DNA of 17,505 nt from Candidatus Poribacteria bacterium (GTDB taxonomy: Bacteria > Poribacteria > WGA-4E > WGA-3G): the NCBI GenBank assembly GCA_009835515.1, contig VXXH01000430.1, positions 1 to 17,505 of the forward strand, written 5' to 3'. Shown here piece by piece: positions 3,178 to 17,198 of the stretch. A program made the position numbers and the translations under genes. How positions within the stretch are numbered: the stretch's first letter is position 1; each line of letters begins with the position of its first letter. The notes beneath the pieces are model-generated. The model was given only the letters and a program-made list of their open reading frames with translations, was not told the DNA's origin and did not search any database.

Positions 3178-3178
3178 C

Positions 3179-4654
3179 TCAGACCTCCTGCCGACTGAAA
3201 ACCGCGAAGGTCATCATAAGTAGCATTGGGTTCAGAGTGAAAAGTAGAAGTAGGTCGCGGAGTGCGCGGTTACTGGCATCCTCAAACACACTCGGCGGTT
3301 GATAAGAGAAGCGTGGGGCATCGTCCCATCGGACGGATCCTTTATCACTCGCAAACCATTGCCGTGAACTGAACGCCTTTTTATCGTAGAAATAGTCCAA
3401 TATTGTTTCCCTATACTGTCGTCCCGCTTTGAAAAAGTCTTGCATTCTCGCGAGATCAGTCCCTGCCCACGCCTCTGTGGAGAGGTGATATAAGCCTGCA
3501 GGTGAAAATCGGAGCGCGTTTCGAGCAATATTTGATTTATGAATATAGGTTTCGGAAAAGGTTGTCTCTCGTATTTGCCAGACTTTGTTAGCAGTCCGAA
3601 TCCGTCCAGATGTTAGTTCTTGAAAATAGGCTTTAACCGTCGGGACATGGATTTCCGATGCATCTGGAATGAACGTAATATTTTTCTTCAAATGTGTGTA
3701 ACTCGAACTCCCACCACTTGATTTACTACCCTTTAGTAATGGCGGGTTCTCAAACGGATCCCCAGGTACTTCTTCAGCCCAATAGAATTGTTCTAAAATC
3801 TGGTCAATCGCTTGATCCGCTTGCTTAACTCTCTCCTCCGTATCAATAAATCGGTTGACGAGGAATAGGCTCACATTCGGATAGAGCAGGGTCAACACCA
3901 CCCAAATAAACATTGAAACAATAAGCGATGTTGCTGTGCGGTGAATTACGCTGGAGATAAACAATCCGATGAGATAGAACGTAGAGGTATAGACGACCGT
4001 TGTGAGGAAAATACCGCCAATCCGAAGAAAGTCGTCGGCACCATAATGGATAGCATTAGATTGCAGTTGGAGCAGTAGTGTCAACAGAAAACTCATTAGC
4101 AGCGGTAGTGTAAGGCACAGCATGGCACCCAGATACTTTGCCAACACAATCCATCCGCGTCCAACAGGATTGACAAGGATTAGACGTAACGTACCGTTCT
4201 CACGGTCGCCAGCGATTGCGTCGTATGCGAAAACCAGAGCGAGAAGACTGAAAAGGATTTGGAAAATAGAGACCAAATCTATATCGGCGAGCAGGTATCG
4301 GAAAGGATTGCTGAACCCTGTATTACGGCTAACATCCCCCCATAAGAACGGAACTTTTCCAATTCTGATTTGGAGGGAATTCTTCGCGCGTTTGTCAAGT
4401 CCCTGATTAAAGAGGCTCAATGGATTGGGTGCTCTGTCAAGCTCCGGCATGAAAGATGAATATGTTTTTCCGCTAAAGTTCCCTTCTTGGTGTCTCTGGA
4501 AACCTTCGTTGTACCTCGCGAGTCTCCGCTCATAATTGTCCGTTAAGACGATGCTCCCCGCCAGTACAAGTGACATAGACGCAATAACCGTAACCAAAAA
4601 GCGGAACGTCATTAAATTCATTAAGAGTTCATGTCGAATCAGTGTCCAAAGCAT
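3179..4654 (-). CDS. ABC-2-type transporter permease (first of a tandem pair)
   Basis: The protein has 491 residues from the ATG at 4654. That start gives MLWTLIRHELL, which aligns with the MLWHIVKREL start of the neighbouring permease, and AAAGGAG (4666-4672) lies 11 bases upstream; an in-frame ATG at 4708 would add 18 unlikely residues. The architecture matches its neighbour: membrane segment ~17-37, large loop, segment ~126-146, signature AYDAIAGDRENGTLR (143-157), a cluster of segments to ~270, a second large loop and a C-terminal segment. The two proteins are diverged paralogues. The gene is preceded by its own promoter (4686-4715), so the pair can be expressed separately from the large operon upstream. 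The cargo is unknown. Confidence 0.82.
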   Translation of the reverse strand: MLWTLIRHELLMNLMTFRFLVTVIASMSLVLAGSIVLTDNYERRLARYNEGFQRHQEGNFSGKTYSSFMPELDRAPNPLSLFNQGLDKRAKNSLQIRIGKVPFLWGDVSRNTGFSNPFRYLLADIDLVSIFQILFSLLALVFAYDAIAGDRENGTLRLILVNPVGRGWIVLAKYLGAMLCLTLPLLMSFLLTLLLQLQSNAIHYGADDFLRIGGIFLTTVVYTSTFYLIGLFISSVIHRTATSLIVSMFIWVVLTLLYPNVSLFLVNRFIDTEERVKQADQAIDQILEQFYWAEEVPGDPFENPPLLKGSKSSGGSSSYTHLKKNITFIPDASEIHVPTVKAYFQELTSGRIRTANKVWQIRETTFSETYIHKSNIARNALRFSPAGLYHLSTEAWAGTDLARMQDFFKAGRQYRETILDYFYDKKAFSSRQWFASDKGSVRWDDAPRFSYQPPSVFEDASNRALRDLLLLFTLNPMLLMMTFAVFSRQEV

Positions 4655-4685
4655 TGAGGCGCATTCTCCTTTGATACAACCTTCA

Positions 4686-4715
4686 TTTATACGCCTACTT
4701 GGATGCACTTTTCAA
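4686..4715 (-). promoter_or_regulatory. Sigma70-type promoter for the twin permease operon
   Basis: On the minus strand TTGAAA (4715-4710) and TATAAA (4691-4686) are separated by 18 bases. The -10 box ends 31 bases upstream of the permease ATG at 4654, leaving a short leader that contains the ribosome binding site. It lies in the 129-base gap that separates the permeases from the lipoprotein gene ending at 4784. Confidence 0.55.
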
Positions 4716-4783: not shown

Positions 4784-6127
4784 TCACTTTCGCGAGGTAT
4801 GTTTAGAAATTGCAGACGGTTGTGTTGATGCTACGTCGGCATAGTAAGCTTCAAGTTCTGCTTTCACCCAACGGCGTATCATTTTTTCGTGTTGGGCACC
4901 CGAAGCATTTGGCGTTAACATGATAAGTGCCATCATCTCTTCTAAATCAAAGGGAGCCCGAAACTGACCATCAATAATAATATCAATGCCCCCATCTCTT
5001 TCGTCTTGCACTAAGCATGCCCAATGTTGATAGTCGTTACTCAAAACGAGTGTGCCGCTTATAGCGTGAGGGACATCCATCACAGCCCCATCGTAAAAGA
5101 CCGAGACGCTCCTGCCCCAAGGCTGTCCCATGTAGGCGAGGTGAAGCCCATCAGGACTGACAATCAAACGTCCTACCCATTTCAATGATGTGCCGCGAAT
5201 CGTATCTGCGACAACAAAGGTGTCACCGTCCCAACTTGCCTCATAAAATAGGGACTCTCCGGCAAAAGTAAGTTGACTGACACTACTAAAAGCAAGGCTA
5301 CGCGTGCCATCTCGGATAATGAACCAATTGTCATCGCGTTCTGCAGCGTAGGCATACTGTCCACCTTGCGAAAATCGGATGCTACTGAAATTATCAAAGA
5401 CTTCGCTCTCTTGTCCGTCTATTACTGCTCGCCAGCCATCGTCGGATCGAACCAGCATACCTAACCGCCCATTTGACCCGAGCGTGAAATCTGCTATTGC
5501 GTTAAAGGGGCCTAGCAATTGATTGTCCAGCGCGAGGTATTGCCGACCCCCTTTTCTGACGATATAGGCAAGTTGTTTACTATTGGGTCCGAATCGAAGG
5601 GCTCCAATACCTTCATAAAGAGGGCCCAATTCTCCCTTAACGACAACGCGGAATTGATTACCCTCGGCAATCACAAAAGCAAGAAAGTGCCCGTCAGGTG
5701 AAAAAGTGAGCGAGCCTTGCATCACTGCCTCAAAAGGAGCACTTCGGACACCTTCACGTACAACTTGCCAACCGTCTGAATCGGAGGCGACGTATGCAAG
5801 CTGCTGCCCCGGGCCAAATAAGATCTCTCCGATGCCTGTCCATGGACGGCTGTGTACACCATCAACTGTTACAATCCAACCCGCATCTGTCTTCGCAGCA
5901 TAGGCAAAACGCTGGGAATCTTCACTGAAGACGATGGTTTCGAGTGCCACGCCGAGGTAAGGTTGCGAAAGTGTTGCGTCTAACTTGAGTTGTTGACGCT
6001 TATCTTTTTCAATGACTTCTACTCGGTGGAGACGGTCAGGACTATGACCGTACCAAACGAGATATTCCTTGCTACAGCCGCATACGAGCAGTGTCAGCAT
6101 CAACGTTATCCAGCGGGAGATGGACAT
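4784..6127 (-). CDS. Beta-propeller repeat lipoprotein, last gene of the acyl-biosynthesis operon
   Basis: The protein has 447 residues from the ATG at 6127, which has AAAGGAG (6135-6141) 7 bases upstream. This start gives a lipoprotein signal: MSISRW, a hydrophobic core and LVCGC with Cys18 as lipidation site; the longer frame from 6229 would bury it. Residues ~55-410 hold about nine imperfect repeats of 36-42 residues, each with a FSPDG-like strand, an LAYVA-like strand, a W-x-VVVDG-like strand and a PFxxI ending. This is the pattern of WD40-like or TolB-like propellers. A short helical tail follows. It overlaps the FabZ-like gene by 22 bases and so is probably in its transcript. It may act as a scaffold or binding protein on the outer face of a membrane. 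No catalytic motif was seen, and specific function is unknown. Confidence 0.72.
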   Translation of the reverse strand: MSISRWITLMLTLLVCGCSKEYLVWYGHSPDRLHRVEVIEKDKRQQLKLDATLSQPYLGVALETIVFSEDSQRFAYAAKTDAGWIVTVDGVHSRPWTGIGEILFGPGQQLAYVASDSDGWQVVREGVRSAPFEAVMQGSLTFSPDGHFLAFVIAEGNQFRVVVKGELGPLYEGIGALRFGPNSKQLAYIVRKGGRQYLALDNQLLGPFNAIADFTLGSNGRLGMLVRSDDGWRAVIDGQESEVFDNFSSIRFSQGGQYAYAAERDDNWFIIRDGTRSLAFSSVSQLTFAGESLFYEASWDGDTFVVADTIRGTSLKWVGRLIVSPDGLHLAYMGQPWGRSVSVFYDGAVMDVPHAISGTLVLSNDYQHWACLVQDERDGGIDIIIDGQFRAPFDLEEMMALIMLTPNASGAQHEKMIRRWVKAELEAYYADVASTQPSAISKHTSRK

Positions 6128-6660
6128 AGAATTTCTCCTTTCGCAACGCTTTGTCCATTGACCTCGGCTTGCACTGACCACCTGTGCTTGTCTGAGGTAT
6201 TCTGATAGACCTGATACGCAATGATACATCCCGCGAAAACCGGCGCAAGCAGTTTTACGCGTAATCTTATGGGTGATTGCTCAAGCTGACGTATCTCCGA
6301 TAGATTATCAAGTACGTGCTGGCACAGCTCCTTGTCAACCTGCGGTTGTAGCATCTGGTACCTCTGAAGTTCAAGGAGCCCGTCAAGCAGGCCCACCTCC
6401 TCGAATTGGCGAATGACATCAAGAAGAACGCAGCACTGTCGGAGTCCCTCAATTGTATGAACACCGGGCCACAGTTTCAAATCTGGAAAATGCCCGACAA
6501 ATACCAGTTCGTTAGCAGACACATAGCGTTCGGCAGATAGTTGGGGGCGCGGTGAACTCTGATAATCAATAACCTGATCAACCATAAGCATTGGATGTCG
6601 CTCAGGTATCAAGTGTTCTATGACATCGGCACCAATAAGGAATTTTCTACTATCTTTCAA
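6106..6660 (-). CDS. FabZ-like 3-hydroxyacyl-ACP dehydratase with intact His/Glu
   Basis: This 184-residue hot-dog-fold protein would dehydrate 3-hydroxyacyl-ACP to trans-2-enoyl-ACP. RHPMLMVD (21-28) matches the FabZ start. GHFPDLKLWPGVHTIEGL (56-73) carries both catalytic residues, His57 and Glu71. It is longer than ordinary FabZ (about 150 residues) because of an insertion of roughly 30-35 residues after the central helix (~85-120), an insertion it shares with the second FabZ-like protein at 16264-16821. The start is a TTG at 6660 with GGAG (6668-6671) 7 bases upstream; the first in-frame ATG (Met24) would remove the conserved RHP motif. The gene follows the FabD-like gene after a 48-base gap and overlaps the lipoprotein gene downstream. 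Confidence 0.85.
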   Translation of the reverse strand: MKDSRKFLIGADVIEHLIPERHPMLMVDQVIDYQSSPRPQLSAERYVSANELVFVGHFPDLKLWPGVHTIEGLRQCCVLLDVIRQFEEVGLLDGLLELQRYQMLQPQVDKELCQHVLDNLSEIRQLEQSPIRLRVKLLAPVFAGCIIAYQVYQNTSDKHRWSVQAEVNGQSVAKGEILCPSPAG

Positions 6661-6708
6661 AAGGTGTCTCCGTGAACAAGGTGAGGTAAAGGCGTTTAGG
6701 GCTAATTT

Positions 6709-7569
6709 TTATATCAACGCTACTTTTGCTTGCGGTAGATTACGACGTACCAAATAACGGAGCACTCTGCCCGGACCCGCTATCACGAAACGTTCAACGC
6801 CTAACGCATCTAAGGTGGCGAGAGCAGTTGTCCAGTTTAACGGTTCAGTCAGTTGTGCCAGAAATTGAGGAACTATCTCTTTTGTGTCATTCATGCAGGC
6901 ACCGTTAAGTCCGGAAATAACAGGACGAATATGTGGTTTAACGCAGAGGCTCCCTAACGCAGTGGCAAGTTCCGGCTTTGCCACTTCCATAAGAGGACTA
7001 TGCCAGGGACCACCCACGTTTAAACGGCGGGATTGGCAGAGAGGTGCGACTGCTTGTAATGCCGGAAGTGTTCCTGTAAGGACGACTTCTCGAGGTGCAT
7101 TGTATGCTCCCACACTCAACGGACCGTGTGTCTGTCCGATCGTCAGCATTTGTTGCACCCCATCTGCATCAATATCAGTTAGCGCGAGCATATCGCCTTC
7201 ATAGATACGAGCGGCGGCTCCCATGGATCGCCCGCGAACCGCAGCGATTTCGACAGCATCCTCAGCGGACATCGCGCCCGCGAATGCCCATGCTGCAACT
7301 TCTCCGAGAGAATGACCAGCAAAGAAATCCGCTGCCAAGCCCTTTTCCCGCGCCCTGAGTGCTTGCGTCAACGCCAAAGCAATATGCAAGGGTTGAATTA
7401 CACGGCTTAACTGCAGCATGCGTCCACCATCAGAAAAAAGCAAGTCAGCCGTACAGTTGCTGGCACAAAGCGCACGTTCAATCAATGAAGAACCTTGTGC
7501 CATTTCCCGCTGCAGAACAGTGCGCGTAGTCGGGTCGCCCAATCCGCTAAAGAGAAGGGCAGTCTTCAC
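6709..7569 (-). CDS. FabD-like (malonyl)acyl-CoA:ACP transacylase
   Basis: This 286-residue acyltransferase would load malonyl (or another acyl) units from CoA onto the carrier protein. GHSLGE (85-90) gives nucleophile Ser87, GGPWHSPLM (186-194) gives catalytic His190, and AVRGRSM (110-116) gives Arg112, which in FabD binds the malonyl carboxylate and so favours a dicarboxylic extender. The N-terminal FPGQGSQ motif of the family is here FSGLGDP, so the Gln that normally supports the oxyanion hole is replaced by Leu10, which is odd. The start is GTG at 7569 with GGAGGA (7578-7583) 8 bases upstream, and its first bases overlap the FabG-like stop codon (GTGA). A fold in this position implies the operon supplies its own extender units. 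Confidence 0.85.
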   Translation of the reverse strand: MKTALLFSGLGDPTTRTVLQREMAQGSSLIERALCASNCTADLLFSDGGRMLQLSRVIQPLHIALALTQALRAREKGLAADFFAGHSLGEVAAWAFAGAMSAEDAVEIAAVRGRSMGAAARIYEGDMLALTDIDADGVQQMLTIGQTHGPLSVGAYNAPREVVLTGTLPALQAVAPLCQSRRLNVGGPWHSPLMEVAKPELATALGSLCVKPHIRPVISGLNGACMNDTKEIVPQFLAQLTEPLNWTTALATLDALGVERFVIAGPGRVLRYLVRRNLPQAKVALI

Positions 7570-8309
7570 AACGACAATCCTCCATCTACGACTAACTGCT
7601 GACCTGTGATATAACTTGCATCATCGGAAGCGAGAAAAAGCACAGCATGAGCGACTTCTTCAGGATTTCCAAAACGGGCTAAAGGAATGTGAATCCGCCT
7701 CTCCTCAGCAAGGTGTCTATTCATCCGCTGAGCCATACCTTCTGTTAGAAGTCCAGGTACGACAGTATTAACGCGGATACCTTTGGGCGCAAGTTCAGCC
7801 GCTAAAGTACGGGTCAAAGCGATAATTCCACCTTTAGCGGCTGCGTAATTGGCTTGTCCAGGGCTGGCAATATGCCCCGCTATAGAGCCGATGTTTACAA
7901 TAGCACCTTTACCTTTTGCCATCATTGAACGGACCACGGCGCGTGAACAATTGAAAACACCGCCGAGGTTAGTTTCCAGGATCGCTGTCCAACTCTCTGC
8001 AGACATGAGCGCGAAAGGTTTATCATCAACGATAGCAGCGTTGTTTACCAAAACATCAATACCATCACGCTGAACAAGGAAGGCTTTAATCGCTCTATCA
8101 ACTGCCTCAGCATCGCTCACATCTGCTTTTACCAGCGCAGCATCTCCACCCACCCGGCGGATTTCGGCAAGTGTTTGCTCGGCACCCTTGTCAAAGCGAT
8201 GGTAACCAATCCCGACGAAGGCACCTTCGGCGGCGAAGGCTTTAGCGATGATCCTTCCCAATCCTCGAGAAGCACCCGTGACTAACACAGTTGAACTCTC
8301 CCAACGCAT
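7566..8309 (-). CDS. FabG-like 3-oxoacyl-ACP reductase (SDR family)
   Basis: This 247-residue classical short-chain dehydrogenase would reduce 3-oxoacyl-ACP to 3-hydroxyacyl-ACP with NAD(P)H. The motifs are in order: TGASRGLG (11-18) binds the cofactor, VNNAA (88-92) follows, and the catalytic set is Asn114, Ser142 (NIGSIAG), Tyr155 and Lys159 (YAAAK), with PG at ~189. The last residues GQQLVVDGGLSL form the usual FabG C-terminus. Length and motifs are fully standard. The ATG at 8309 shares one base with the stop of the upstream GcvT-like gene (TGATG), indicating coupled translation. With no enoyl reductase in the operon, the KR and DH steps should leave a double bond in each cycle. Confidence 0.9.
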   Translation of the reverse strand: MRWESSTVLVTGASRGLGRIIAKAFAAEGAFVGIGYHRFDKGAEQTLAEIRRVGGDAALVKADVSDAEAVDRAIKAFLVQRDGIDVLVNNAAIVDDKPFALMSAESWTAILETNLGGVFNCSRAVVRSMMAKGKGAIVNIGSIAGHIASPGQANYAAAKGGIIALTRTLAAELAPKGIRVNTVVPGLLTEGMAQRMNRHLAEERRIHIPLARFGNPEEVAHAVLFLASDDASYITGQQLVVDGGLSL

Positions 8310-9337
8310 CAGCTCAAGTCCTCCGCTCGCGTGTGAAAACTGTGGCGGTAGGGGCTAACTTTCAAACTAAGGTTATTGATAGCTGGTGTCGAGATGGTCT
8401 TTAAAGGAATGCCACCAACTTGAAAGGCATCTAATCCAGCGTGCCAATACGGTTCGTTGAGCAATGCCTTACCGACGCAATCCCCTCGCGCAGGCGAATA
8501 TCCTGCCACTAAAACATGCCCCACGATTTCATCATCACAGGTAATTTCCGCATCGGCGTTTACAGGGTCAGGCGTAGCAAAACAGGTGAGCCTACGTGTC
8601 CATCCAGAGTGTCGGAGTGTGTGTAGTGCTTCAGCACCGGGGTATGTGGTTTTCTGTGAGGACAACCGCCACTGCAGCTGCAACTCCAAAGGGGTGAGAT
8701 GATACTGACCTTCTCTATTGATATCGAAGAAGAAACTCTCTAATACACATTGGGCTCGGACGGACTCGTCGGCGCGTGCCATCTCGAATGCTGCACCCGT
8801 AGCAAGCAAATTTTCGACCCAACGCTCTTTTTGGTCGGTCGGCACCAATAGGTGATACCCATATTCCCCTGTCCTCCCGGCCCGAAACACAAACATTGCA
8901 TCCAAGACCAGCATCCCCAAATAGGGTAAACCGAGTATGTCGGGCCCGAATACTTCCGCACATAATTCCCATGCATAGGGACCATCAATTGTTAAGTTAT
9001 CGTACGACTCCCCGAGATCGACGATTGAAAAATCGGTAATACCGGTTGCGTGATAGGTAACCCAGTTGGCAATTTCATCAGCACCGGATCCATAGCCAAT
9101 CAGATAAGCATTCTCACCTTCTCGGCAAACATAGACATCGGCAAAAGGGATACCCGTATCGTCCAGCAGCAATGTGTGCTTCATCTGCCCATCTTGGAGA
9201 AAGATATCGCATGGACATACGGCATCAAGCGCATCAAAGGCTTGGCTGCCAGTCAACTGTAGGCAACGCAGCTCAGGTTCTTCAGCGAAAGCCACCGAGT
9301 TACGAATGGCGTGATAACTAACTTCAGCTTCCGTCAT
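8309..9337 (-). CDS. GcvT-like (aminomethyltransferase / YgfZ-fold) folate-binding-fold protein
   Basis: The protein has 342 residues from the ATG at 9337, which has GAGGAG (9345-9350) 7 bases upstream; the longer frame from 9469 adds 44 residues lying inside the ACP gene and was rejected. It matches GcvT along its length: LLLDDTGIPFADVYV (56-70, family GGxxDD region), GPYAWEL (~119-125), RAGRTGEYGYHLLVP (152-166, family R-G-YTGE-GFE), TPLELQLQW (~215-223), and a C-terminal barrel with VGHVLVAGYSPARG. In the GGxxDD site one of the two Asp is Ala and the other (Asp67) is kept. GcvT moves a one-carbon unit to tetrahydrofolate, but no other glycine-cleavage gene is present. In this setting it may transfer or remove a methyl group on the acyl product, or be non-catalytic. 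The assignment to the fold is firm; the reaction is unknown. Confidence 0.75.
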   Translation of the reverse strand: MTEAEVSYHAIRNSVAFAEEPELRCLQLTGSQAFDALDAVCPCDIFLQDGQMKHTLLLDDTGIPFADVYVCREGENAYLIGYGSGADEIANWVTYHATGITDFSIVDLGESYDNLTIDGPYAWELCAEVFGPDILGLPYLGMLVLDAMFVFRAGRTGEYGYHLLVPTDQKERWVENLLATGAAFEMARADESVRAQCVLESFFFDINREGQYHLTPLELQLQWRLSSQKTTYPGAEALHTLRHSGWTRRLTCFATPDPVNADAEITCDDEIVGHVLVAGYSPARGDCVGKALLNEPYWHAGLDAFQVGGIPLKTISTPAINNLSLKVSPYRHSFHTRAEDLS

Positions 9338-9626
9338 CAAGATTCTCCTCACTTTGACGCAGTACCACATCCACAAGGGAATTAATTGTGCGTAGGGCGA
9401 ACATGCTATCACCTTCCTCCAGTGAAATTCCGAATTCCGATTCCAAAGCCACAACGATCTCGACAGCATCTACGGAGTCAAGTCCGAGTCCGGTACCGAA
9501 AAGCGGTGTATCCGGGTCTAACTCTTCATAAGAACGATCAAGTTGCAGACCGGAAATTAACAGTTCAATTACACGATTGAGTGTATTTTCACGACGTTCA
9601 ATTTTTTCTTTTAGTTCAGGTCGCAT
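9324..9626 (-). CDS. Acyl carrier protein
   Basis: This 100-residue acidic helical protein is the carrier on which the acyl chain is built. LGLDSVDAVEIV (47-58) is the 4'-phosphopantetheine attachment motif, with Ser51 as the attachment site. It is somewhat longer than FabC/AcpP (about 78 residues) because of about 12 extra N-terminal residues and a C-terminal tail of acidic residues. The ATG at 9626 overlaps the end of the ketosynthase gene by 16 bases and is preceded by GGGAG about 8 bases upstream. The 3' end overlaps the GcvT-like gene by 14 bases. A phosphopantetheinyl transferase is not encoded in the window. Confidence 0.92.
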   Translation of the reverse strand: MRPELKEKIERRENTLNRVIELLISGLQLDRSYEELDPDTPLFGTGLGLDSVDAVEIVVALESEFGISLEEGDSMFALRTINSLVDVVLRQSEENLDDGS

Positions 9627-11539
9627 GCTTTGCTCCCAGTTTCCAGAATGACAGCGGCACCCGCAGATCCCTCACTTCGGTTACTAATAAGAAAGGGACC
9701 CTGTTCGCCTGCTTTTAAGGCATCCATAGCAGCGATAACTGCCCAAAGTCCAGCAACGGTAGGGGGTCCCAGAACAGCCATCAGCACAACCTCTTCGCGG
9801 TTGAGAGATGCTTGCGCCAATGCCCGTTCAGTCGCTAATTCACAATTTGTTGCGAGTGCCCATCCGGTTAGATTCATAGGAGCCGACGCTTCTCCCGCTT
9901 TGAGAAGAATGCTGGCAGCTCCATTTTTATAATTATCCGATGCGTCGGGTTCGTCAACTCCTGCAGCCAATAGGTGATTAACATCATCACGCCAGGCGAG
10001 GCGGTCCGCCGCTAAAATAAGAGCCGTAAGTCCACTCTCTACCCCGGTTGAGAGTGTCGCCGTGGGCCCTTTTAATCCAAAAAGTCTGCAACAAACGCCG
10101 GTCGCATAGTTACAGACCATTCGCGTGAAGGCTGAGGCGGAGAGATGCGGTAATCCACGCATCTGAACACTTTTATCAAAGGCTTTGACACTCTCTGGCG
10201 AGACGCGGGTCTGACCGACAAAAAGCCCAATCCCTTCGCAGTCTGGTGTTCGTGTCCGGACACCGGCATCTGCTAAGGCAGTACCGGTTGCACTGGCGAG
10301 AAGGCGTGCTGACATATCTATGCCTCGCAGTTCAGTGCGCGGCGCAAATTGGTTAACCTGCTGACCATCCTGAGCTACACCTGCGCCAACAAGGCTAATA
10401 GAACGCGGAACTTTTCTCTCGTCCCGTGGTGTCCCATCTGCTTGCCCGAAAACTAAGGCAGTGTTGACCCCGCCAAACGCCGCATTGGTACATACAGCGT
10501 GCCGTATCATATACGGTCTCGGTTTTGGTCTTGCAACGGGATCCGTCGGGGCATTGCGGCGGGGTTGCGTAACATTGATGGTCGGAGGTACAACTTTGTG
10601 CGCCATCGCCATTAAAGTTACTATCGCCTCAAGCGCGCCGGCAGCCCCTTGGGCGTGGCCGAGGAAACTCTTGCTTGAACTGACAGGTAATTGGTTAGCA
10701 AAATCACCGAAAACGCGCTGGATCGCACGCCACTCAGACGCATCATTCGCGGCTGTGCCTGTGCCGTGCGCATTGAGATAGTCAATCGCCTCAGGTTCAA
10801 GACCAGCATCTCTTACTGCGACAGCGAGGGCTTTCGCCATCCCTAAACCTGACGGGATAGGGGTTGTATCGTGGTAAGCATCGGCAGAAAACCCATATCC
10901 CATGAATTCTGCTAACGGCATCGCGTCTCGTTCCTTCGCGGAGCGTTCAGATTCAAGAAGCATAAACGCAGCCCCTTCACCAAGGGTGGTTCCCATATTC
11001 GTGCTGAAGGGCGCGCAAGGATGTTTAGAGAGCAATCCGAGACTGTGAAAGCCAGCGAAAACTTCTGCACTGAGAATATCTACACCCCCTGCAAGCGCAG
11101 ACGGAACAACACCTCGTCGCACGAGATCTGCAGCGAAGCCTATCGCATGCGCGGACGATGCACACGCGGTTGAGAGGGTGATAGCGGGTTCTCCAAGTTT
11201 CAGGGCTTTCGAGAGATCGGTGGTTACGCTGTGTAGATCTCTCCCCAGCAATCCGTTACAGGTCCCAAGCACCAAAGCAACTCGATCCCTATTGCCAATT
11301 TTGGCATTTTGGAGAGCCTCATTAGCTGCAGCACACCCGTAAGCCAAGAGACGTTGTGCTTCAGTATCGCAGCAATTGTCCGAAGACACCATCGCCCCCA
11401 ACTCGGTATCAAACGTACCAACGTTAAAGCGATGGATGGGTGCAATACCGCTATGACCTTGCTCTATAGCATCCCAAAGTGTTTCAATGTTTTCACCCAA
11501 GGCACAGCGTGCCCCGAGCCCAGTAACAATGATTTTCAT
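9611..11539 (-). CDS. Fused ketosynthase / degenerate ketosynthase (chain-length-factor-like)
   Basis: The protein has 642 residues in two parts. Residues 1-365 form a FabF-type ketosynthase with the full triad: Cys126 (STACASSA), His258 (NAHGTGT) and His295 (KSFLGHAQGAAG, with Lys290). It should perform decarboxylative condensation of malonyl-ACP with the growing chain. Residues ~380-642 are a second, shorter ketosynthase-like domain: GLKGPTATLSTGVESG (488-503) aligns with the active-site loop but has Val500 in place of Cys, the two His motifs are missing, and the tail (LISNRSEGSAGAAVILE) resembles a KS C-terminus. It looks like a KS N-terminal-like domain acting as a chain-length factor or structural partner. 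The ATG overlaps the lipoprotein A stop (ATGA). A decayed copy of this gene's first ~118 bases lies at 12749-12865. Confidence 0.85.
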   Translation of the reverse strand: MKIIVTGLGARCALGENIETLWDAIEQGHSGIAPIHRFNVGTFDTELGAMVSSDNCCDTEAQRLLAYGCAAANEALQNAKIGNRDRVALVLGTCNGLLGRDLHSVTTDLSKALKLGEPAITLSTACASSAHAIGFAADLVRRGVVPSALAGGVDILSAEVFAGFHSLGLLSKHPCAPFSTNMGTTLGEGAAFMLLESERSAKERDAMPLAEFMGYGFSADAYHDTTPIPSGLGMAKALAVAVRDAGLEPEAIDYLNAHGTGTAANDASEWRAIQRVFGDFANQLPVSSSKSFLGHAQGAAGALEAIVTLMAMAHKVVPPTINVTQPRRNAPTDPVARPKPRPYMIRHAVCTNAAFGGVNTALVFGQADGTPRDERKVPRSISLVGAGVAQDGQQVNQFAPRTELRGIDMSARLLASATGTALADAGVRTRTPDCEGIGLFVGQTRVSPESVKAFDKSVQMRGLPHLSASAFTRMVCNYATGVCCRLFGLKGPTATLSTGVESGLTALILAADRLAWRDDVNHLLAAGVDEPDASDNYKNGAASILLKAGEASAPMNLTGWALATNCELATERALAQASLNREEVVLMAVLGPPTVAGLWAVIAAMDALKAGEQGPFLISNRSEGSAGAAVILETGSKACDLN

Positions 11540-12705
11540 GGACCATCAAATATATCTATAATCCCTCCGAGGAGGATAATACAACAACTAAACATCCCAA
11601 ATAACACAGCTCCGATGGTTATAAGCGCTCCAACGTGGCCCACTCCGGTATCCATGTCTCCACCACCAATTGCGATGAGTCCCAAACCGCCCACAAAGAC
11701 TACACCACTAATCCCAAGCATAAATAAACCTGTTCTGTACCAACCATCGCTTGGCTCGCTACCACTTTGTCTTGCTATATTTTCCGTTTTCGGCAATTGT
11801 TGTGGTTCGCGTTGCTCTTGGCTGGCATCATCTGGCGAATTTTCGTCGTTTATACCTTCATTTGTCACCAGTTGATAGCCAATAGGAATATCTTCAAGGT
11901 CCTGCCTTTGCCAATACCGCGCCGCGTTTTCTGCTTCCTTAATCAGGGCTTTAAAAGCTGACTGCCCTATGCGCGCCGCCATAAATCGCTGCGTTTCAGC
12001 AGCGGAACCTGATACGACTGTAAGTTTTTCGCACTTGGCGACATATTCGTTAATAAACATGTCTGAGGAGTGCTTCAAACGATCGATGATATGTTGACCT
12101 ATCACATGCAGCTGCTTTCGGCGACGGTTAGACGCCCCGACAGCAGCTGCTTCAAGGTCCATTGCCTCAAGCGTTTGGTCACCGAGCGTGGGATTCTCAC
12201 GGAGAGCTGATTGAATATCGGCTCGCGCAGTCGGAGACAGCGACTTCATCTGATTCACTGTCCCCTGAACGGCTGCGTCCATCTCCGGAGCAGAGTAGTG
12301 AAGCCTTTTCTGCATCCCTGGATGCACCTGGCCTGCTACCGATAAATCACCGAAGTTGCCAACGAGTAGGAGAGAGCGCATACTTTGACGGAACAGCTGC
12401 GCGTCTTTTTTACCCATCGGTTTCTGTTGAAGTTTACTGATAGCATGTCCTCCGTCTGGGTTTTCCACAATGCGATTCATTGCTGCATCCGAAGCAATTA
12501 GAAAACGATCCATCTCCAAAGGCGTAACATTGGGCCAACTTGGAGCAATCACTTGGCTGATCCCTGCGCAACCGGTAACACCAGTCGCCAGTGCCCCTAT
12601 ACTTCCAATTAAGAAATCTCTTCTTTTCATTATATGCCTCGCTGTTGAGTCATGTGTGTTGCGATTGCACACCAACTCCAGTTGATTGTCCGAAAATCGA
12701 AAACA
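11422..12705 (-). repeat. Tandem duplication, copy A (lipoprotein A plus intact KS 5' end)
   Basis: This is the downstream copy of a unit of about 1.32 kb. It contains a degenerate trace of the DUF1702-like 3' end (about 12631-12705), the whole lipoprotein A gene, and the first 118 bases of the intact ketosynthase gene. The start-to-start distance of the two lipoprotein genes is 1320 bases. The upstream boundary is approximate. Confidence 0.75.
11536..12630 (-). CDS. Tat-exported lipoprotein A with C-terminal membrane segments (uncharacterised)
   Basis: The protein has 364 residues from the ATG at 12630 (GAGG about 8 bases upstream); the longer frame from 12675 would hide the signal. MKRRDFLIGSIGALATG carries a twin-arginine motif, followed by VTGC with Cys21 as a plausible lipidation site. 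A helical soluble region (~35-270) includes LLLVGNFGDLSVAGQVHPG and a conserved ASNRRR stretch. A low-complexity polar linker rich in Glu, Gln and Pro follows, then about two hydrophobic segments in the last ~68 residues. I do not recognise the family. It is paralogous to the protein at 12862-13950, about 70% identical by eye over the soluble part. Its position directly before the ketosynthase, with ATGA overlap, suggests a role in the envelope step of the pathway, for example holding or delivering the lipid product. Confidence 0.7.
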   Translation of the reverse strand: MKRRDFLIGSIGALATGVTGCAGISQVIAPSWPNVTPLEMDRFLIASDAAMNRIVENPDGGHAISKLQQKPMGKKDAQLFRQSMRSLLLVGNFGDLSVAGQVHPGMQKRLHYSAPEMDAAVQGTVNQMKSLSPTARADIQSALRENPTLGDQTLEAMDLEAAAVGASNRRRKQLHVIGQHIIDRLKHSSDMFINEYVAKCEKLTVVSGSAAETQRFMAARIGQSAFKALIKEAENAARYWQRQDLEDIPIGYQLVTNEGINDENSPDDASQEQREPQQLPKTENIARQSGSEPSDGWYRTGLFMLGISGVVFVGGLGLIAIGGGDMDTGVGHVGALITIGAVLFGMFSCCIILLGGIIDIFDGP

Positions 12706-12748
12706 TAATGTTGTTGGTAACTATACTCTCTGATTGATAAAATCCAAG

Positions 12749-12865
12749 CGTTAAAGCGATTGATGGGTGCAATACCGCTGTTGCCTTGTTCTATGGCATG
12801 CCAGAGTATTTCAACATTTTCGCCCAAGGCGCAATGTGCCTGAGACCAGTGACAAGGACTTTCAT
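12749..12865 (-). pseudogene. Remnant of ketosynthase gene 5' end, left by tandem duplication
   Basis: The minus-strand sequence from the ATG at 12865-12863 matches the first 118 bases of the ketosynthase gene (11539-11422) over 117 bases. A one-base deletion near codon 9 shifts the frame, after which the frame GENVEILWHAIEQGNSGIAP aligns with the KS residues GENIETLWDAIEQGHSGIAP. Similarity stops abruptly after the codons for RFN. Its ATG overlaps the lipoprotein B stop codon (ATGA), exactly as the intact KS start overlaps the lipoprotein A stop. The remaining bases to 12630 are non-coding, with weak similarity to the 3' end of the DUF1702-like gene. Confidence 0.88.
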
Positions 12866-13950
12866 GGGCTATGACCTATTCCGATGAGAAACATGGCAAG
12901 GCCCGCCAATGTAAGTATAGGTCCAACAGTTAGTCCAGGTATTGTTCCCAAAAGTGCCAGACCGTTGCTATCAATCTCAAAGCTTCCAGCAGCCATCATT
13001 AACACGCCGACCCCAGTGGTTACAACACCAATGCCAAGCGTCCGGAGACCAGTTCTGTACCAGTAATTGCTCGCACCACTACTACCTTGCGGGGCTATAT
13101 CTTCTTTTTTCGATAACTCTTGTGGTTGAGGTTTCTCCTGGTGAGCGTTGTCGGATTTACTATTATCGTTTGTATCCTCTTGCACCACCAATTGATAGCC
13201 AATCGGAATATCCTCAATATGCTGCCTTTGCCAGTATTGAGCTGCATTTTCCGCTTCCCGAACCTGTGCCTTAAAAACTGCTTCCCCCATGCGCGCTGCC
13301 ATGAATCGCTGCGTTTCAGCAACAGAACCCGGCGTAACCGTTAGTTTTTCGCATTTTCTGACATATTCATTGATAAACATGTCCGAGGAATGCTTCAAAC
13401 GCTTGACGATGTGCTTGCCCATCACATGTAATTGCATCCGGCGGCGGTTAGATGCGCCAACGGCAGCCGCTTCAAGGTCAATCGTCTCAAGCACATGATC
13501 ACCGAGCGTAGCGTCCTTACGAAGGGCGGACTGTATATCCGCGCGCGCTGTTGGCGACAGTAATTTCATCTGATTCATTGTGTCCTCAACCGCTGCGTCC
13601 ATCTCCGGCGCAGAGTAGTGAAGCCGTTTCTGGACACCCGGATGTACTTGACCGGCTACCGATAAATCACCGAAATTACCGACGAGTAAAAGAGAACGCA
13701 TACCTTGGCGAAAGAACTGCGCGTCTTTTTCGCTGGGAGGCTGCCCTTGAAATTCACTGAGAAAACGTCCTCCTTCCCGATTCTCTGTAATTTGATTCAT
13801 GGAACCATCCAGACTTGTCAAAAAACGATTCATCTGCAAAGGTGTAATATTGGGCCAATTCGGAGCAATCACCTGACCAATGCCTGTGCAACCAGTAACA
13901 CCAGCAGCCAATGCCCCCATACCACTCATCAAGAAATCTCTTCTTTTCAC
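12862..13950 (-). CDS. Tat-exported lipoprotein B with C-terminal membrane segments (uncharacterised)
   Basis: The protein has 362 residues from a GTG at 13950 with GGAGGA (13957-13962) 6 bases upstream; the GTG overlaps the DUF1702-like stop (GTGA). An ATG at 13983 is possible but lacks a good ribosome site and would spoil the signal. KRRDFLMSGMGALAAG is a twin-arginine signal and VTGC puts the lipidation Cys at residue 21. The layout copies lipoprotein A: helical domain with LLLVGNFGDLSVAGQVHPG and ASNRRR, polar linker, and hydrophobic segments near the C-terminus. The signal, central and linker-adjacent regions are most conserved between the copies, while the C-terminal membrane part has diverged most. 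The family is unrecognised. Retention of two open copies after a duplication whose junction has decayed argues that both are selected. Confidence 0.7.
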   Translation of the reverse strand: MKRRDFLMSGMGALAAGVTGCTGIGQVIAPNWPNITPLQMNRFLTSLDGSMNQITENREGGRFLSEFQGQPPSEKDAQFFRQGMRSLLLVGNFGDLSVAGQVHPGVQKRLHYSAPEMDAAVEDTMNQMKLLSPTARADIQSALRKDATLGDHVLETIDLEAAAVGASNRRRMQLHVMGKHIVKRLKHSSDMFINEYVRKCEKLTVTPGSVAETQRFMAARMGEAVFKAQVREAENAAQYWQRQHIEDIPIGYQLVVQEDTNDNSKSDNAHQEKPQPQELSKKEDIAPQGSSGASNYWYRTGLRTLGIGVVTTGVGVLMMAAGSFEIDSNGLALLGTIPGLTVGPILTLAGLAMFLIGIGHSP

Positions 13951-14726
13951 AATATTTCCTCCGTTTGTTGTGCAAGTGTGCACAGCAATTGTGTACCGGT
14001 CTCTAATCCTGCCGAGAAATGCGATTCAAAGTTTCCAGCGGCTTCACTCATCTGTGTTGCCGCAAGTGTTGCGTTACCAGTAAAAGCACAAGCAGTGCCG
14101 ACACCACGCCAAAGTTGTTTGCGTCGGGCCGGTAAAAATCTGTCAATCGTGTGGACAATAGGTTCAACGCGACCGATATGAACAAACCACAATGCCCGTC
14201 CGAGACCAATATCATAGAAAGTGCTTAATTCGCCTGTGTTCATAGGAAATCCTCTGCCTGTGAACCGCTCGGAATGGAAGAATCCTTGGTGAAAGCCGTA
14301 ACCGTCTACAACTGCGGACATATAATGTGAGCCTAACGCTGTCGGTGTCCAGTCAAGCGATTTGCCCAAACGCGCACTTGCCCATCCGACACCAATCGCA
14401 ACAAGTGTCTGTTCTTCAGCAGATCTACCATCAAATAAGACACAGAGCCTGCTATGGGGTACTGGGCTTAATTCATCCATTAAGGTAAGTGCCATAGCCA
14501 TACCTTCAATTGCGAAACCACGTCCTTGAAACGGCATAACCTGCAAAAGTTGAGGCAGGGCTTCCGGTGGCACCTTCAGTGCTTCACTGAATCCACGCAA
14601 AAAGTATGCACGTGCATCCGATACCCGCTCATATATTTTTGGATGGACATCAATAGGCGAAGGTTGTGGTATATCACGGAATAATCGAGATAACCGCACC
14701 CGTACGCGATCAGCGTGTGTACTCAC
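13947..14726 (-). CDS. DUF1702-like protein
   Basis: This 259-residue soluble protein starts at GTG 14726, whose bases overlap the stop of the flavoprotein gene (GTGA); AGAGGA lies about 9 bases upstream. Features resembling DUF1702 as I remember it are FLRGF (~38), GRGFAIEGMAMAL (~68-80), GVGWASARLG (~117-126), a SHYM then DGYGFHQGFF run (~138-152), and a C-terminal region with GRALWF and WRGVGTA. DUF1702 proteins have no established reaction; I recall them as neighbours of polyketide clusters, including enediyne loci. Here the gene sits between a halogenase-like flavoprotein and the lipoproteins. The family name rests on pattern memory rather than a search. Its last few dozen bases appear to have been caught in the lipoprotein duplication. 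Confidence 0.6.
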   Translation of the reverse strand: MSTHADRVRVRLSRLFRDIPQPSPIDVHPKIYERVSDARAYFLRGFSEALKVPPEALPQLLQVMPFQGRGFAIEGMAMALTLMDELSPVPHSRLCVLFDGRSAEEQTLVAIGVGWASARLGKSLDWTPTALGSHYMSAVVDGYGFHQGFFHSERFTGRGFPMNTGELSTFYDIGLGRALWFVHIGRVEPIVHTIDRFLPARRKQLWRGVGTACAFTGNATLAATQMSEAAGNFESHFSAGLETGTQLLCTLAQQTEEIL

Positions 14727-16267
14727 CTTACAATTTCCTCTATCGTGTTACTAAAGGATTCTAAAATTTTTATGTTTTCTTCTAACCGAACCTTGAGCAC
14801 ATCAGCAGCTTCCAAACGGTCTTCACTGGACAAATAGAGCGACTGAACAGCTTCAACACAGGCTTGATCAATAAAGTGCCCAGCGTAAGAACTTCTTGGT
14901 GCTTCATACCGTTTGAAACGATGTATCATCCGTTGTTGCAGGCTCTCCAATAAGGCATTTTCCTTTTTAATCATCTGGTGAAACCCAGGGTCACAGAAAC
15001 GATCGTTACAGAAAAGTAAGACATTGTAGGCAAAGTAAACTGCGGTGTCCCACGCTACTTTCTGTAGCATAGCACCCGGGTTATCCATCAACATGTAATT
15101 TCCGTGATACAATCCAAAATACTGTCGGTACATACCATTAAGCAACTCCTCACCAAATCTGGAAAGAATTGCGAATCGGAGTCGATCTTCGGCGTGATCT
15201 GCCGCAATCATCTGTGTGATGAGGGTGTTCCCCACAGCGATGAAATCTCCACCCGGTGAATAGAGGGCATCCACAAAAAAGGCAGATTCACCGCAGAGTG
15301 CCCAACGATCCACCGAGAGCGTCCGCCGACTGAGATAAGACCTCGCTTTCATGGCGTGGAAATCAAGATGTTCAAAGGAAGAAACAACTTTAGCCAATTG
15401 AGGTTCCCGGGGTTTGAGCCAAGTCAACACCTTTTCAAATCGGTTGAATTGCTCAAGGGCGTGCTGGTTAGGATCTGCCATAATCCCGACACTCGTGGCT
15501 CCACTTGGCAGCGGAATCAGCCAGATCCAGTAGCCGTCTCCCATTAAATGGTTCGTGCTAAGCCAACGCAGCCCTGGGCGTGTTCTCCTATGATACGCTG
15601 CATCCTCGGTCCAATGATCTGGATCAATTCGTCCAGCAAGCCGAAACCAGGCAGCATTGACCGCATGCGCTTGCGTCTGTCTGAGTTTCAAACGACGCGC
15701 GAGGAACCCCGCACGACCGGTTGCGTCAATAACCCAACGAGCGTTAATCTTCAAATCGGAAGTGCTTGCGTCAGCAACAAGTTCATGCGGATCACCAAAA
15801 TTCAAACGCTTAACTTTGCAGGCTTCTAAGACTTCTACATCGGTTTCACGACAGCGTTTCAAGAGATAGTTCTCCAAGCGACCCCGGTCAACGTTGTATG
15901 TCGGCAGATGGATTCCGGGAAGGTTCATCTTTGGTTTAGTGGGCATATCTTCTGGAATTCTGAGCAGACCATATTCCGGACGGCACCCCAGATCCCTGTT
16001 GTCCGAGTTGCTCATAAAAAAACGCAACCCAAACTTGGGCAGATGTGACGCAAGCAGATGATCGCCTAATCCCAGCGTTTCTCGGAGATACCAAGAAGAG
16101 ACCTCGACCATTGACTCGCCAACCTTGAAAGTTGTTTCAGGCACAGGGTATCGGTGCCGCTCAAGCACCGTCACACTAAGTGTAGGGAGAGTTTGCCGCA
16201 GCTGAAGTGCCAAAGTCAGCCCTGCAAGACCGCCGCCAATAATCACTACATCGGAATAGCGCGTCAT
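14723..16267 (-). CDS. FAD-dependent halogenase-like oxidoreductase
   Basis: This 514-residue soluble flavoprotein has VVIIGGGLAGLTLA (7-20) as dinucleotide-binding fold, FKVGESMVE (47-55), DATGRAGFLARR (181-192) and CGESAFFVDALYSPGGD (325-341) as the later FAD motif. Two features of flavin-dependent halogenases are visible: WIWLIP (247-252) fits the WxWxIP motif, and Lys78 in LPKFGLRFF lies where halogenases carry the essential Lys. A helical C-terminal part (~365-514) is also typical of the tryptophan-halogenase-like family. Many relatives of this family in fatty acid or polyene clusters are hydroxylases or dehydrogenases, so chlorination is not proven. The substrate is likely ACP-bound. 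No flavin reductase is visible. The ATG overlaps the FabZ-like stop (ATGA). Confidence 0.75.
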   Translation of the reverse strand: MTRYSDVVIIGGGLAGLTLALQLRQTLPTLSVTVLERHRYPVPETTFKVGESMVEVSSWYLRETLGLGDHLLASHLPKFGLRFFMSNSDNRDLGCRPEYGLLRIPEDMPTKPKMNLPGIHLPTYNVDRGRLENYLLKRCRETDVEVLEACKVKRLNFGDPHELVADASTSDLKINARWVIDATGRAGFLARRLKLRQTQAHAVNAAWFRLAGRIDPDHWTEDAAYHRRTRPGLRWLSTNHLMGDGYWIWLIPLPSGATSVGIMADPNQHALEQFNRFEKVLTWLKPREPQLAKVVSSFEHLDFHAMKARSYLSRRTLSVDRWALCGESAFFVDALYSPGGDFIAVGNTLITQMIAADHAEDRLRFAILSRFGEELLNGMYRQYFGLYHGNYMLMDNPGAMLQKVAWDTAVYFAYNVLLFCNDRFCDPGFHQMIKKENALLESLQQRMIHRFKRYEAPRSSYAGHFIDQACVEAVQSLYLSSEDRLEAADVLKVRLEENIKILESFSNTIEEIVR

Positions 16268-16821
16268 AAAGGATTCTCCAATTTTGCGCCCACTATCGTG
16301 CCCTGGGTAACAACTTGTGCTTCAACAGACGCTTGCACCGCAAAACGGGACAAATTTTCAAGCACATGCGTCTGTTCCACTTTGTATTCAAGCAACTCAC
16401 CAGCTCGAACTCGACCGACGACCTCAACATCTACCGAAGCCAACATGCCGATCTTGGAAGCGGCATTCATTGTGCTATCCCCAAAAATCTCCAATAATCG
16501 CTCTAATGTATAATAATTGTCGTCAGCACCGTCTGTATTCGTTAAGAGATCACTAATATTTTCCGTTCCCAATGCGTCCGCCTCACGTCTACGTTCACAT
16601 GTCCAAATGTAACTCAGGAGGCTGCAGCATTGCCCCAGTCCTTCAATGACGTATACCGATGGCCAGTAAAACGGCGGTTCGACACCAGAAAACACAGGTT
16701 CAGAGCGGCAAATAGGTCGCTCGGCGTTGAGAATAGGAACATCACCACCTATGTATCTAATGATCGATTTGACCATTAGAAACGGAGGACGATGCGGCAG
16801 GGAAGATTCTACAGTTTTCAT
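16264..16821 (-). CDS. FabZ-like protein lacking the catalytic His
   Basis: This 185-residue hot-dog-fold protein is paralogous to the dehydratase at 6106-6660. LPHRPPFLMV (8-17) is the FabZ start, and WPSVYVIEGLGQCCSLL (53-69) aligns with the central helix and keeps Glu60. The GHFP motif is replaced by FSGVEPPFYW (44-53), so Val47 stands where the catalytic His should be, and the PG of the family becomes PS. Both homologues share an insertion of about 35 residues after this helix (~75-115). It may be a non-catalytic partner in a heterodimer with the intact dehydratase, or may have an altered activity. The ATG overlaps the upstream stop (ATGA) and has no clear ribosome binding site, so translation is probably coupled. 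Confidence 0.75.
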   Translation of the reverse strand: MKTVESSLPHRPPFLMVKSIIRYIGGDVPILNAERPICRSEPVFSGVEPPFYWPSVYVIEGLGQCCSLLSYIWTCERRREADALGTENISDLLTNTDGADDNYYTLERLLEIFGDSTMNAASKIGMLASVDVEVVGRVRAGELLEYKVEQTHVLENLSRFAVQASVEAQVVTQGTIVGAKLENPL

Positions 16822-17198
16822 TGTTCAGATATAGAAACGTATAAGTAAAAAGCGAGGGTTCCAGCAAGACAACCCAGAACAGCAGGACCTGTTTGGCGAT
16901 TGCGAACTTTTGCTTTGTAGGTTTGTGTGTAAATCTGGATATATTCTGGTGATTTACCAACGAACCTTGCTGCAGGTGGTGCTTGGGCGAAATAAGCTAC
17001 GAGAACCGTCCCTGCCCCGCACAGAAAACCAACAGCACCCCACACACCTTGCTTAATATCGGCTTTGGCATCTCGTTCAGCAGCAGCTACGGCTTCAGCC
17101 CGTTCTGAATTTTGTTGTGCAAGGGCAATCATGGGCGTACTGAAGACCAACACTGCCATAAAAAACACTAAAAGACAAAAAGTCGAATCTATTTTCAC
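16818..17198 (-). CDS. Small exported membrane protein, first gene of the operon (uncharacterised)
   Basis: The protein has 126 residues from a GTG at 17198 with AAGGAG 8 bases upstream. An N-terminal signal peptide (hydrophobic ~8-23, likely cleavage after IALA at residue 27) is followed by a short charged, Ala/Glu-rich stretch. A first hydrophobic segment follows (~50-71, VGFLCGAGTVLVAYFA), then a polar loop with SPEYIQIYTQTYKAKVRNRQ (~83-102), and a second segment (~104-122). I do not recognise a named family. As first gene of the run, its upstream region (17199-17505) should carry the main promoter. The combination of membrane anchor and basic loop fits a small inner-membrane accessory protein; function is unknown. 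Confidence 0.65.
   Translation of the reverse strand: MKIDSTFCLLVFFMAVLVFSTPMIALAQQNSERAEAVAAAERDAKADIKQGVWGAVGFLCGAGTVLVAYFAQAPPAARFVGKSPEYIQIYTQTYKAKVRNRQTGPAVLGCLAGTLAFYLYVSISEQ

Follow-up and report, generated by a model that had tools for sequence, protein, structure and literature searches.

A recurrent type II polyketide-like gene cassette with a fused ketosynthase and a GcvT-like partner in Poribacteria and other bacteria

A 17,505-nucleotide contig of a sponge-associated Candidatus Poribacteria bacterium (VXXH01000430.1, our G000:C279; hereafter the window) comes from a genome bin of 4.85 Mb that is 78.6% complete. It carries an operon of 13 genes that, to our knowledge, belongs to a conserved and uncharacterised type II polyketide-like family. 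The family is marked by a ketosynthase (KS) fused to a partner domain and by a GcvT-like protein. An earlier prediction from the sequence, the original prediction, had proposed a distinct type II system at this locus. Gene order and a core gene set recur across lineages, in line with that proposal, and no characterised cluster with the same gene set was found in the open-licence literature searched. If this reading is right, the operon stands for a compact biosynthetic family, probably widespread, that has so far escaped description, its members being uncultured or having been annotated gene by gene.

In the open reading frame (ORF) list of the window, all 13 genes lie on the minus strand, from 17198 to 4784, and the cassette coordinates below refer to this strand. 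In order of transcription they encode a small membrane protein (smp126), a dehydratase-like protein (DH1), a flavin (FAD) enzyme, a DUF1702 protein, two lipoproteins (lipA and lipB), the fused KS, an acyl carrier protein (ACP), the GcvT-like protein, a ketoreductase (KR), an acyltransferase (AT), a second dehydratase-like protein (DH2) and a propeller lipoprotein. Adjacent genes overlap by 1–22 nucleotides at 10 of the 12 pairs, with ATG 9337 as the GcvT-like start, so the overlaps said to join most genes are indeed there. The two non-overlapping junctions are lipA–lipB (231 nucleotides) and AT–DH2 (48 nucleotides).

Recurrence of the cassette

Conserved synteny across lineages had been set as the test of the original prediction, and the outcome is positive. 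Poribacteria jk18x1bz bin 25 (L007) holds the whole set in the same order, at 65–95% identity (best match per gene). The order is also kept in PMV_1_maxbin.001 (L008), a KSB1 metagenome-assembled genome (MAG), at 56–80% identity, with one lipoprotein and without smp126. Mis-binning of this locus is possible, yet in sequence it differs from the Poribacteria loci. Because its flanks differ, the ends of the cassette can be placed at DH1 and the propeller gene. By eye, a DUF3800-like gene (8027–8683) is inserted between DUF1702 and the lipoprotein in the KSB1 locus.

The partner half of the fused KS was also found in at least 21 of 377 genomes from the phylum that includes Deltaproteobacteria MAG SZUA-265 (E 1e-12). 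We examined 20 of the 21 loci (L089–L108). These were picked by the fused KS, so its presence in 20 of 20 is by design. Neighbours were counted within 12 kb of the KS by an iterated search, in which drift is possible: ACP and the GcvT-like gene were each found in 19 loci, DH2 in 17, KR and AT in 16 each, and the propeller gene in nine. Profile searches at E 1e-3 found the lipoprotein in 17 loci (weakest 4e-4), the halogenase-like flavin enzyme in three and DUF1702 in one, the last two being the variable part of the cassette. Among the genes sought, KS, ACP and the GcvT-like gene are consecutive in 17 of 20 loci, and the lipoprotein lies directly upstream of the KS in 14. Rather than odd additions to the operon, the GcvT-like and lipoprotein genes are frequent neighbours of the fused KS.

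Distances between KS sequences were compared with those between partner proteins by Mantel tests on 19–23 loci (excluding L107, and also L007 for ACP and L040 for KR). The correlation was highest for KR (rho 0.83), followed by the GcvT-like protein (0.73) and DH2 (0.66), with none of 2000 permutations as high in any of these three. ACP (rho 0.49, 1 of 2000 permutations as high) and AT (0.48, 4 of 2000) also tracked the KS. Since the gene order recurs in other genomes and KS distances track those of the partner genes, the association goes beyond chance.

The KS tree groups the Poribacteria and KSB1 proteins with related database proteins in one set of 11 rows (100/100). One Deltaproteobacteria-type locus, L100, has an extended order of DH1, FAD enzyme, DUF1702, lipoprotein, KS, ACP, GcvT-like, AT, DH2 and propeller, without KR. 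This locus lies far off in the KS tree, which suggests that the extended module is either old or exchanged. A label test on the tree, in which several branches are long, did not show that the extended form clusters.

The cluster is an accessory insertion within the Poribacteria genus, where two genomes have all of it and two only part. Seven cluster-free genomes of the genus with a close permease orthologue were checked for an empty site. In six (L073–L078) a radical-SAM gene directly adjoins the ABC permease. The seventh (L079) lacks the radical-SAM gene and the one after it, and has a short-chain dehydrogenase/reductase (SDR) gene next. At the same radical-SAM/permease site, G032 (on the contig of L007) has a full insertion, whereas that of G029 (on the contig of L006) breaks off behind KS residue 69. 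In G020 the site holds five genes with open frames (DH1, KS, ACP, GcvT-like and DH2) together with an smp126 fragment, a form that points to a minimal core. The window contig stops before the radical-SAM gene, and its own left flank lies outside the contig.

Of 84 Poribacteria genomes, three have DUF1702, three the lipoprotein and four the partner half, one of these last a weak match at 29% identity in G049. Among 82 genomes of the KSB1 MAG's phylum, both DUF1702 and the partner half were found in one, that MAG itself. The G049 locus (L042, G049:C617, 3507–14777), also from the Poribacteria phylum, has two adjacent KS-type genes with ACP-like and FabZ-like genes. By eye, it also has a FAD-desaturase-like gene and UnbV/FG-GAP-like repeat proteins. 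No GcvT match was found in this locus.

Fused ketosynthase, carrier protein and GcvT-like protein

The fused KS (9611..11539; 642 residues) matches PF00109 (5.6e-32) and PF02801 (8.2e-37). Residues 1–370 make up the KS half, with C126, H258 and H295. A domain resembling a chain length factor (CLF) or cyclization factor (CYF) spans residues ~372–642, with Gly499 in the place of the active cysteine. The KS homologue of the original prediction is thus confirmed as a ketosynthase and corrected to a fusion of KS and partner domain. All 24 aligned fused KS rows keep the cysteine and both histidines. The partner-domain column aligned with the active cysteine holds a cysteine in 0 of 24, the partner domains of L098 and L104 having one two or three residues off that column. 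Residues 398–497 align with residues 59–158 of FabF, which indicates a second, half-size thiolase-fold domain. Matches of the partner half to KS proteins fall on their N-terminal thiolase half, the best being to PDB chain 9s5h_C (9.1e-9). When proteins were searched with this half and the best 7999 candidates scored, at least 86 were returned, 74 of them 600–700 residues long.

Half-size KS partners are described in excerpts of two papers: ApeC of aryl polyene (APE) systems is a CLF with one thiolase fold (PMC8358021), and the AmcG cyclization factor is likewise of half size (PMC10698177). The window protein has the predicted make-up of a KS with a half-size, one-thiolase-domain partner of the ApeO–ApeC type, here as a fusion. 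At E up to 1, PF13723, which we take to be the ApeC-type domain, was matched in two of the 34 fused members scanned, with 0.029 as the lowest E.

The ACP (9324..9626) matches PF00550 (1.9e-11) and has a GLDSV motif. In nearly all relatives examined, the GcvT-like gene adjoins it. The GcvT-like protein (8309..9337, start set to ATG 9337) matches PF01571 (GCV_T) at 3.8e-25, and its 89 bits exceed the gathering threshold of 25.6. The Asp, Glu and Arg positions of the T-protein are kept: D111, E202 and R238 (numbering of the 386-residue ORF) align with Asp96, Glu191 and Arg227 of T-protein 1woo, presumably residues of its folate site. Family score and site residues together predict a folate-binding protein. 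A glycine cleavage T-protein proper is not indicated, since the NCBIfam gcvT equivalog model gives 55.4 bits against a cut-off of 235.85. Three relatives are 70–81% identical to the window protein (alignment A8).

The near-constant place of the GcvT-like gene beside the ACP makes a question testable: can a T-protein fold serve for one-carbon reactions whose substrate is bound to an acyl carrier protein? Tentatively, the GcvT-like protein and the fused KS–partner protein could be an obligate pair in a type II polyketide synthase (PKS) subfamily of its own, common to sponge Poribacteria, KSB1 and myxobacteria-like genomes. The chain carried by the ACP would then gain or lose a one-carbon unit by way of tetrahydrofolate, through branching, aminomethylation or demethylation, and the phosphopantetheine arm would do what the lipoyl arm does in glycine cleavage. 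We regard this idea as rather improbable in its full form. If true, it would mean that chains bound to a carrier protein are edited with the help of folate.

Tailoring enzymes and the predicted pathway

The KR (7566..8309) is a FabG-type SDR that scores 245.5 bits with NCBIfam NF009466 (cut-off 222). The AT (6709..7569) is FabD/MdcH-like (PF00698, 4.1e-20; GHSLGE). Both window proteins have what we take to be the active-site motifs of their families. Two DH homologues had been predicted and both are present, DH2 intact and DH1 without its catalytic histidine. DH2 (6106..6660) is a FabZ-like dehydratase (PF07977, 1.5e-9) that keeps GHFP and the glutamate. DH1 (16264..16821) is a FabZ-like hot-dog protein that matches FabZ models only (NCBIfam, 6e-12, under cut-off), with GVEP/GAEP replacing GHFP. 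In a wider alignment, the catalytic histidine is present in 20 of 20 DH2-type rows and missing in the three assessable DH1-type rows; the fourth (L100) is gapped there. All four sequences of a separate alignment, two of them shared with the wider set, have GVEP or GAEP. DH1 is probably catalytically dead, and we infer that in the extended form DH2 would be the catalytic subunit with DH1 as its inactive partner.

We give about an even chance to the reading that these proteins form a self-contained, iterative, reducing type II PKS cassette that makes an unsaturated acyl-ACP. The AT would load malonyl units onto the dedicated ACP. The fused KS would condense them, the partner domain setting the number of rounds. 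KR and DH2 would leave one double bond in each round; in the extended form, DH1 would support them structurally. While the chain is bound to the ACP, the GcvT-like protein may modify it in a one-carbon reaction that depends on folate. The extended form would add halogenation or oxidation of that chain by the flavin enzyme, with DUF1702 as an accessory. Finally, the product may be passed to the lipoproteins at the envelope or anchored there by them. The product is probably an unsaturated, fatty-acid-like and possibly chlorinated chain.

Pfam and NCBIfam scans covered 17 of the 71 listed window ORFs. Among these, no AMP-ligase, thioesterase or aromatic-starter family was matched, and no second SDR fit to be a separate enoyl reductase. 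The original prediction had listed these four functions as missing, and for the ORFs scanned this holds. Because no separate enoyl reductase was found, the double bond is expected to be retained in each round.

Several observations weigh against such a conserved polyketide cassette. L106 is scrambled and on split strands, and in L104 the KS is displaced to the end of the order. ACP and the GcvT-like gene were not found near the KS in L107, and no cassette KR turned up in L040, L099, L100, L106 or L107. The fabF, fabZ, fabD and gcvT NCBIfam scores are all under their curated cut-offs. In Pfam the KR fits PF13561 best, a model named for enoyl-ACP reductase, although NCBIfam assigns it to FabG. 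For the flavin enzyme, NCBIfam ranks the monooxygenase QhpG (73.8 bits) above the halogenase CmlS (70.2), both far under cut-off, and with scores this close the enzyme may oxidise instead. An envelope destination is suggested by the lipoproteins, and this step is a guess since no transporter or release enzyme is linked to the cassette. Lastly, the KS, partner, ACP and DH2 also match models of the ring-forming cispentacin family.

This last point opens another reading, which we consider possible but doubtful: a system like the KS–CYF pairs of cispentacin and coronafacic acid. A few condensations would be followed by ring closure in the cavity between KS and partner, the hot-dog enzyme would act as decarboxylase or dehydratase, and no polyene would form. 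AmcF (2e-72) spans the whole KS half in one stretch (3–365 to 2–368 of 369), the KS half having the length and layout of AmcF, and it matches 34 of 34 fused members scanned. AmcG is the top NCBIfam match of the partner half of L008 (9.9e-6) and is listed for L040 and the window (8.6e-5 and 0.021), but not for L089 or L096. The ACP matches AmcB (4e-7) and DH2 matches AmcE (9e-12), although DH2 scores higher with FabZ (67.9 bits against 45.3). All Amc scores stay under curated cut-offs (AmcF 244.3 against 325 bits; AmcG 14.5–25.3 against 80). In excerpts of PMC10698177, CYF is described as being without some CLF secondary structures, and amcH is found in almost all cispentacin-type KS–CYF clusters. 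Here, no AMP-binding family, as expected of AmcH, was matched in the window ORFs scanned. An adenylation signature, in a pattern we assume to be right and ran without a positive control, gave 0 matches in 23 loci. The cassette also differs in that KS and partner are fused, AmcC and AmcD were not seen, and KR, AT, the GcvT-like protein and lipoproteins are present.

Since the parts are FabF-, FabG-, FabZ- and FabD-like and the operon holds lipoproteins, a specialised fatty acid synthase was also considered. It would work beside the housekeeping one and supply unsaturated or branched acyl chains for membranes or lipoproteins, with no secondary metabolite made. Production of methyl-branched fatty acids has reportedly been proposed for sponge Poribacteria. 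The accessory distribution argues otherwise, with the partner half clear in 3 of 84 Poribacteria genomes and the site empty in six of those checked, and an inactive partner of half size is what CLF-type systems typically have. We judge this explanation unlikely.

Known systems resemble the proposed polyketide cassette in part. Aryl polyene systems (ApeO–ApeC, ApeQ, ApeI/ApeP) share a KS with half-size CLF, a KR and a hot-dog dehydratase pair. PRK09184 (ACP) and PRK09185 (KS), presumably APE-type models, are among the cassette matches. In contrast to those systems, the cassette has KS and CLF in one chain, a single ACP, a GcvT-like protein, an AT and lipoproteins of its own. The APE gene list, as excerpted from PMC8253772, includes an acyl-ACP synthetase, a second KS, a thioesterase, anchoring acyltransferases and Lol-like/RND (resistance-nodulation-division) parts. 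None of acyl-ACP synthetase, second KS, two ACPs, thioesterase or Lol/RND transport was found in the 17 window ORFs scanned. With the KS fused and these accessory genes not matched there, the likeness to aryl polyene systems is one of outline only, as originally stated. PfaC of polyunsaturated fatty acid synthases has KS and CLF in one polypeptide, as here (PMC12895367, in excerpt). The cassette differs in its half-size partner and in its small free-standing proteins with one ACP, where such a synthase would have a megasynthase, tandem ACPs and an enoyl reductase; no separate enoyl reductase was found.

Flavin enzyme, DUF1702, lipoproteins and flanks

The flavin enzyme (14723..16267; 514 residues) matches DAO/Trp_halogenase in Pfam. 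Its best PDB relatives are the halogenases ChlB4 (5.7e-21) and PltA (5.9e-18). These share with it a lysine and the WxWxIP motif, which we take to be the catalytic lysine and motif of flavin-dependent halogenases, and presumably act on carrier-bound substrates. The window enzyme has Lys78 (LPKFG) and WIWLIP, and the lysine and WIW(L/M)IP occur in five of five aligned rows (A4). Halogenation is therefore a prediction from these motifs; at 514 residues and E 5.7e-21, the enzyme is a distant relative of PltA and ChlB4. In a Deltaproteobacteria MAG (L009, 1524–11578), a gene for a 2816-residue type I PKS-like protein adjoins a halogenase-like flavin gene with 35% identity.

The short DUF1702 protein (13947..14726) matches PF08012 (3.8e-41; 141.4 bits against a gathering threshold of 25) and its model is all-helical (predicted local distance difference test, pLDDT, 90). 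Enediyne clusters also have a DUF1702 member ('E3'), but the cassette has the short form of 250–275 residues, and no enediyne type I PKS is present in the window. For database proteins on contigs of at least 8 kb, equal contig size was used as a proxy for a shared contig. By this proxy, 26 of 45 close DUF1702 homologues share a contig with a fused KS, 24 of 45 with the lipoprotein and 34 of 45 with either. Distant DUF1702 proteins do so with a fused KS or lipoprotein in 0 of 11 cases, and enediyne-type ones share a contig with a fused KS in 1 of 22, probably a coincidence. The extended form offers a small, non-enediyne setting for studying DUF1702, together with a halogenase-like enzyme. Short DUF1702 proteins P0071–P0082, some named from Bacteroidota MAGs, share no contig with a fused KS by the same proxy.

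Two paralogous twin-arginine translocation (Tat) lipoproteins had been predicted. Both are present, and one copy is a duplication product. The twin-arginine lipoprotein lipA (12862..13950; alignments A2 and A7) has a C-terminal hydrophobic hairpin, and lipB (11536..12630) is 65% identical to it. The family has 137 homologues, and a scan of 40 members gave no Pfam match besides Tat-signal models. Between the two genes (region 12631–12865) lies a remnant of a KS 5' end (12744..12865), 82% identical to the KS start (101 of 123 positions, to KS nucleotides 1–122) and also recognised as a protein match. A few KS-like N-terminal residues are likewise left between the two lipoproteins of L007. A second KS 5' end in this gap indicates that lipA and lipB arose by tandem duplication of a lipoprotein–KS unit and loss of one KS. 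A second group of homologues (P0197–P0220, about 335–343 residues, 54–57% identical) shares a contig with a fused KS or DUF1702 in 0 of 14 cases by the proxy, and another role is possible for it.

The remnant could also mean that the window copy is decaying and its product no longer made, the more so as the cluster of SB0675_bin_22 is truncated after KS residue 69. We hold this to be very improbable: all 13 window genes are open, the active-site motifs looked for are all present, and the order is retained in L007 and L008.

The last cassette gene encodes a beta-propeller-like lipoprotein (4784..6127; start MSISRW, lipobox-like CGC) with a partial TmcD match (2.3e-14), and it is kept in L007 and L008. 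The first, smp126 (16818..17198), is an ORF for a 126-residue membrane protein with homologues in L006 and L007 and a fragment in L040. It had been taken for an operon member and is present in the window. No match was found in L008 or L089–L108, so that among the loci searched it occurs in Poribacteria only. On the 3' side of the cassette lie two ABC-2 permeases, followed by a DMFA2_C protein on the plus strand. The permease pair (ABC-2/DUF3526, 1750–4708) belongs to a family with 2 to 18 matches per genome in the genus (E 1e-100).

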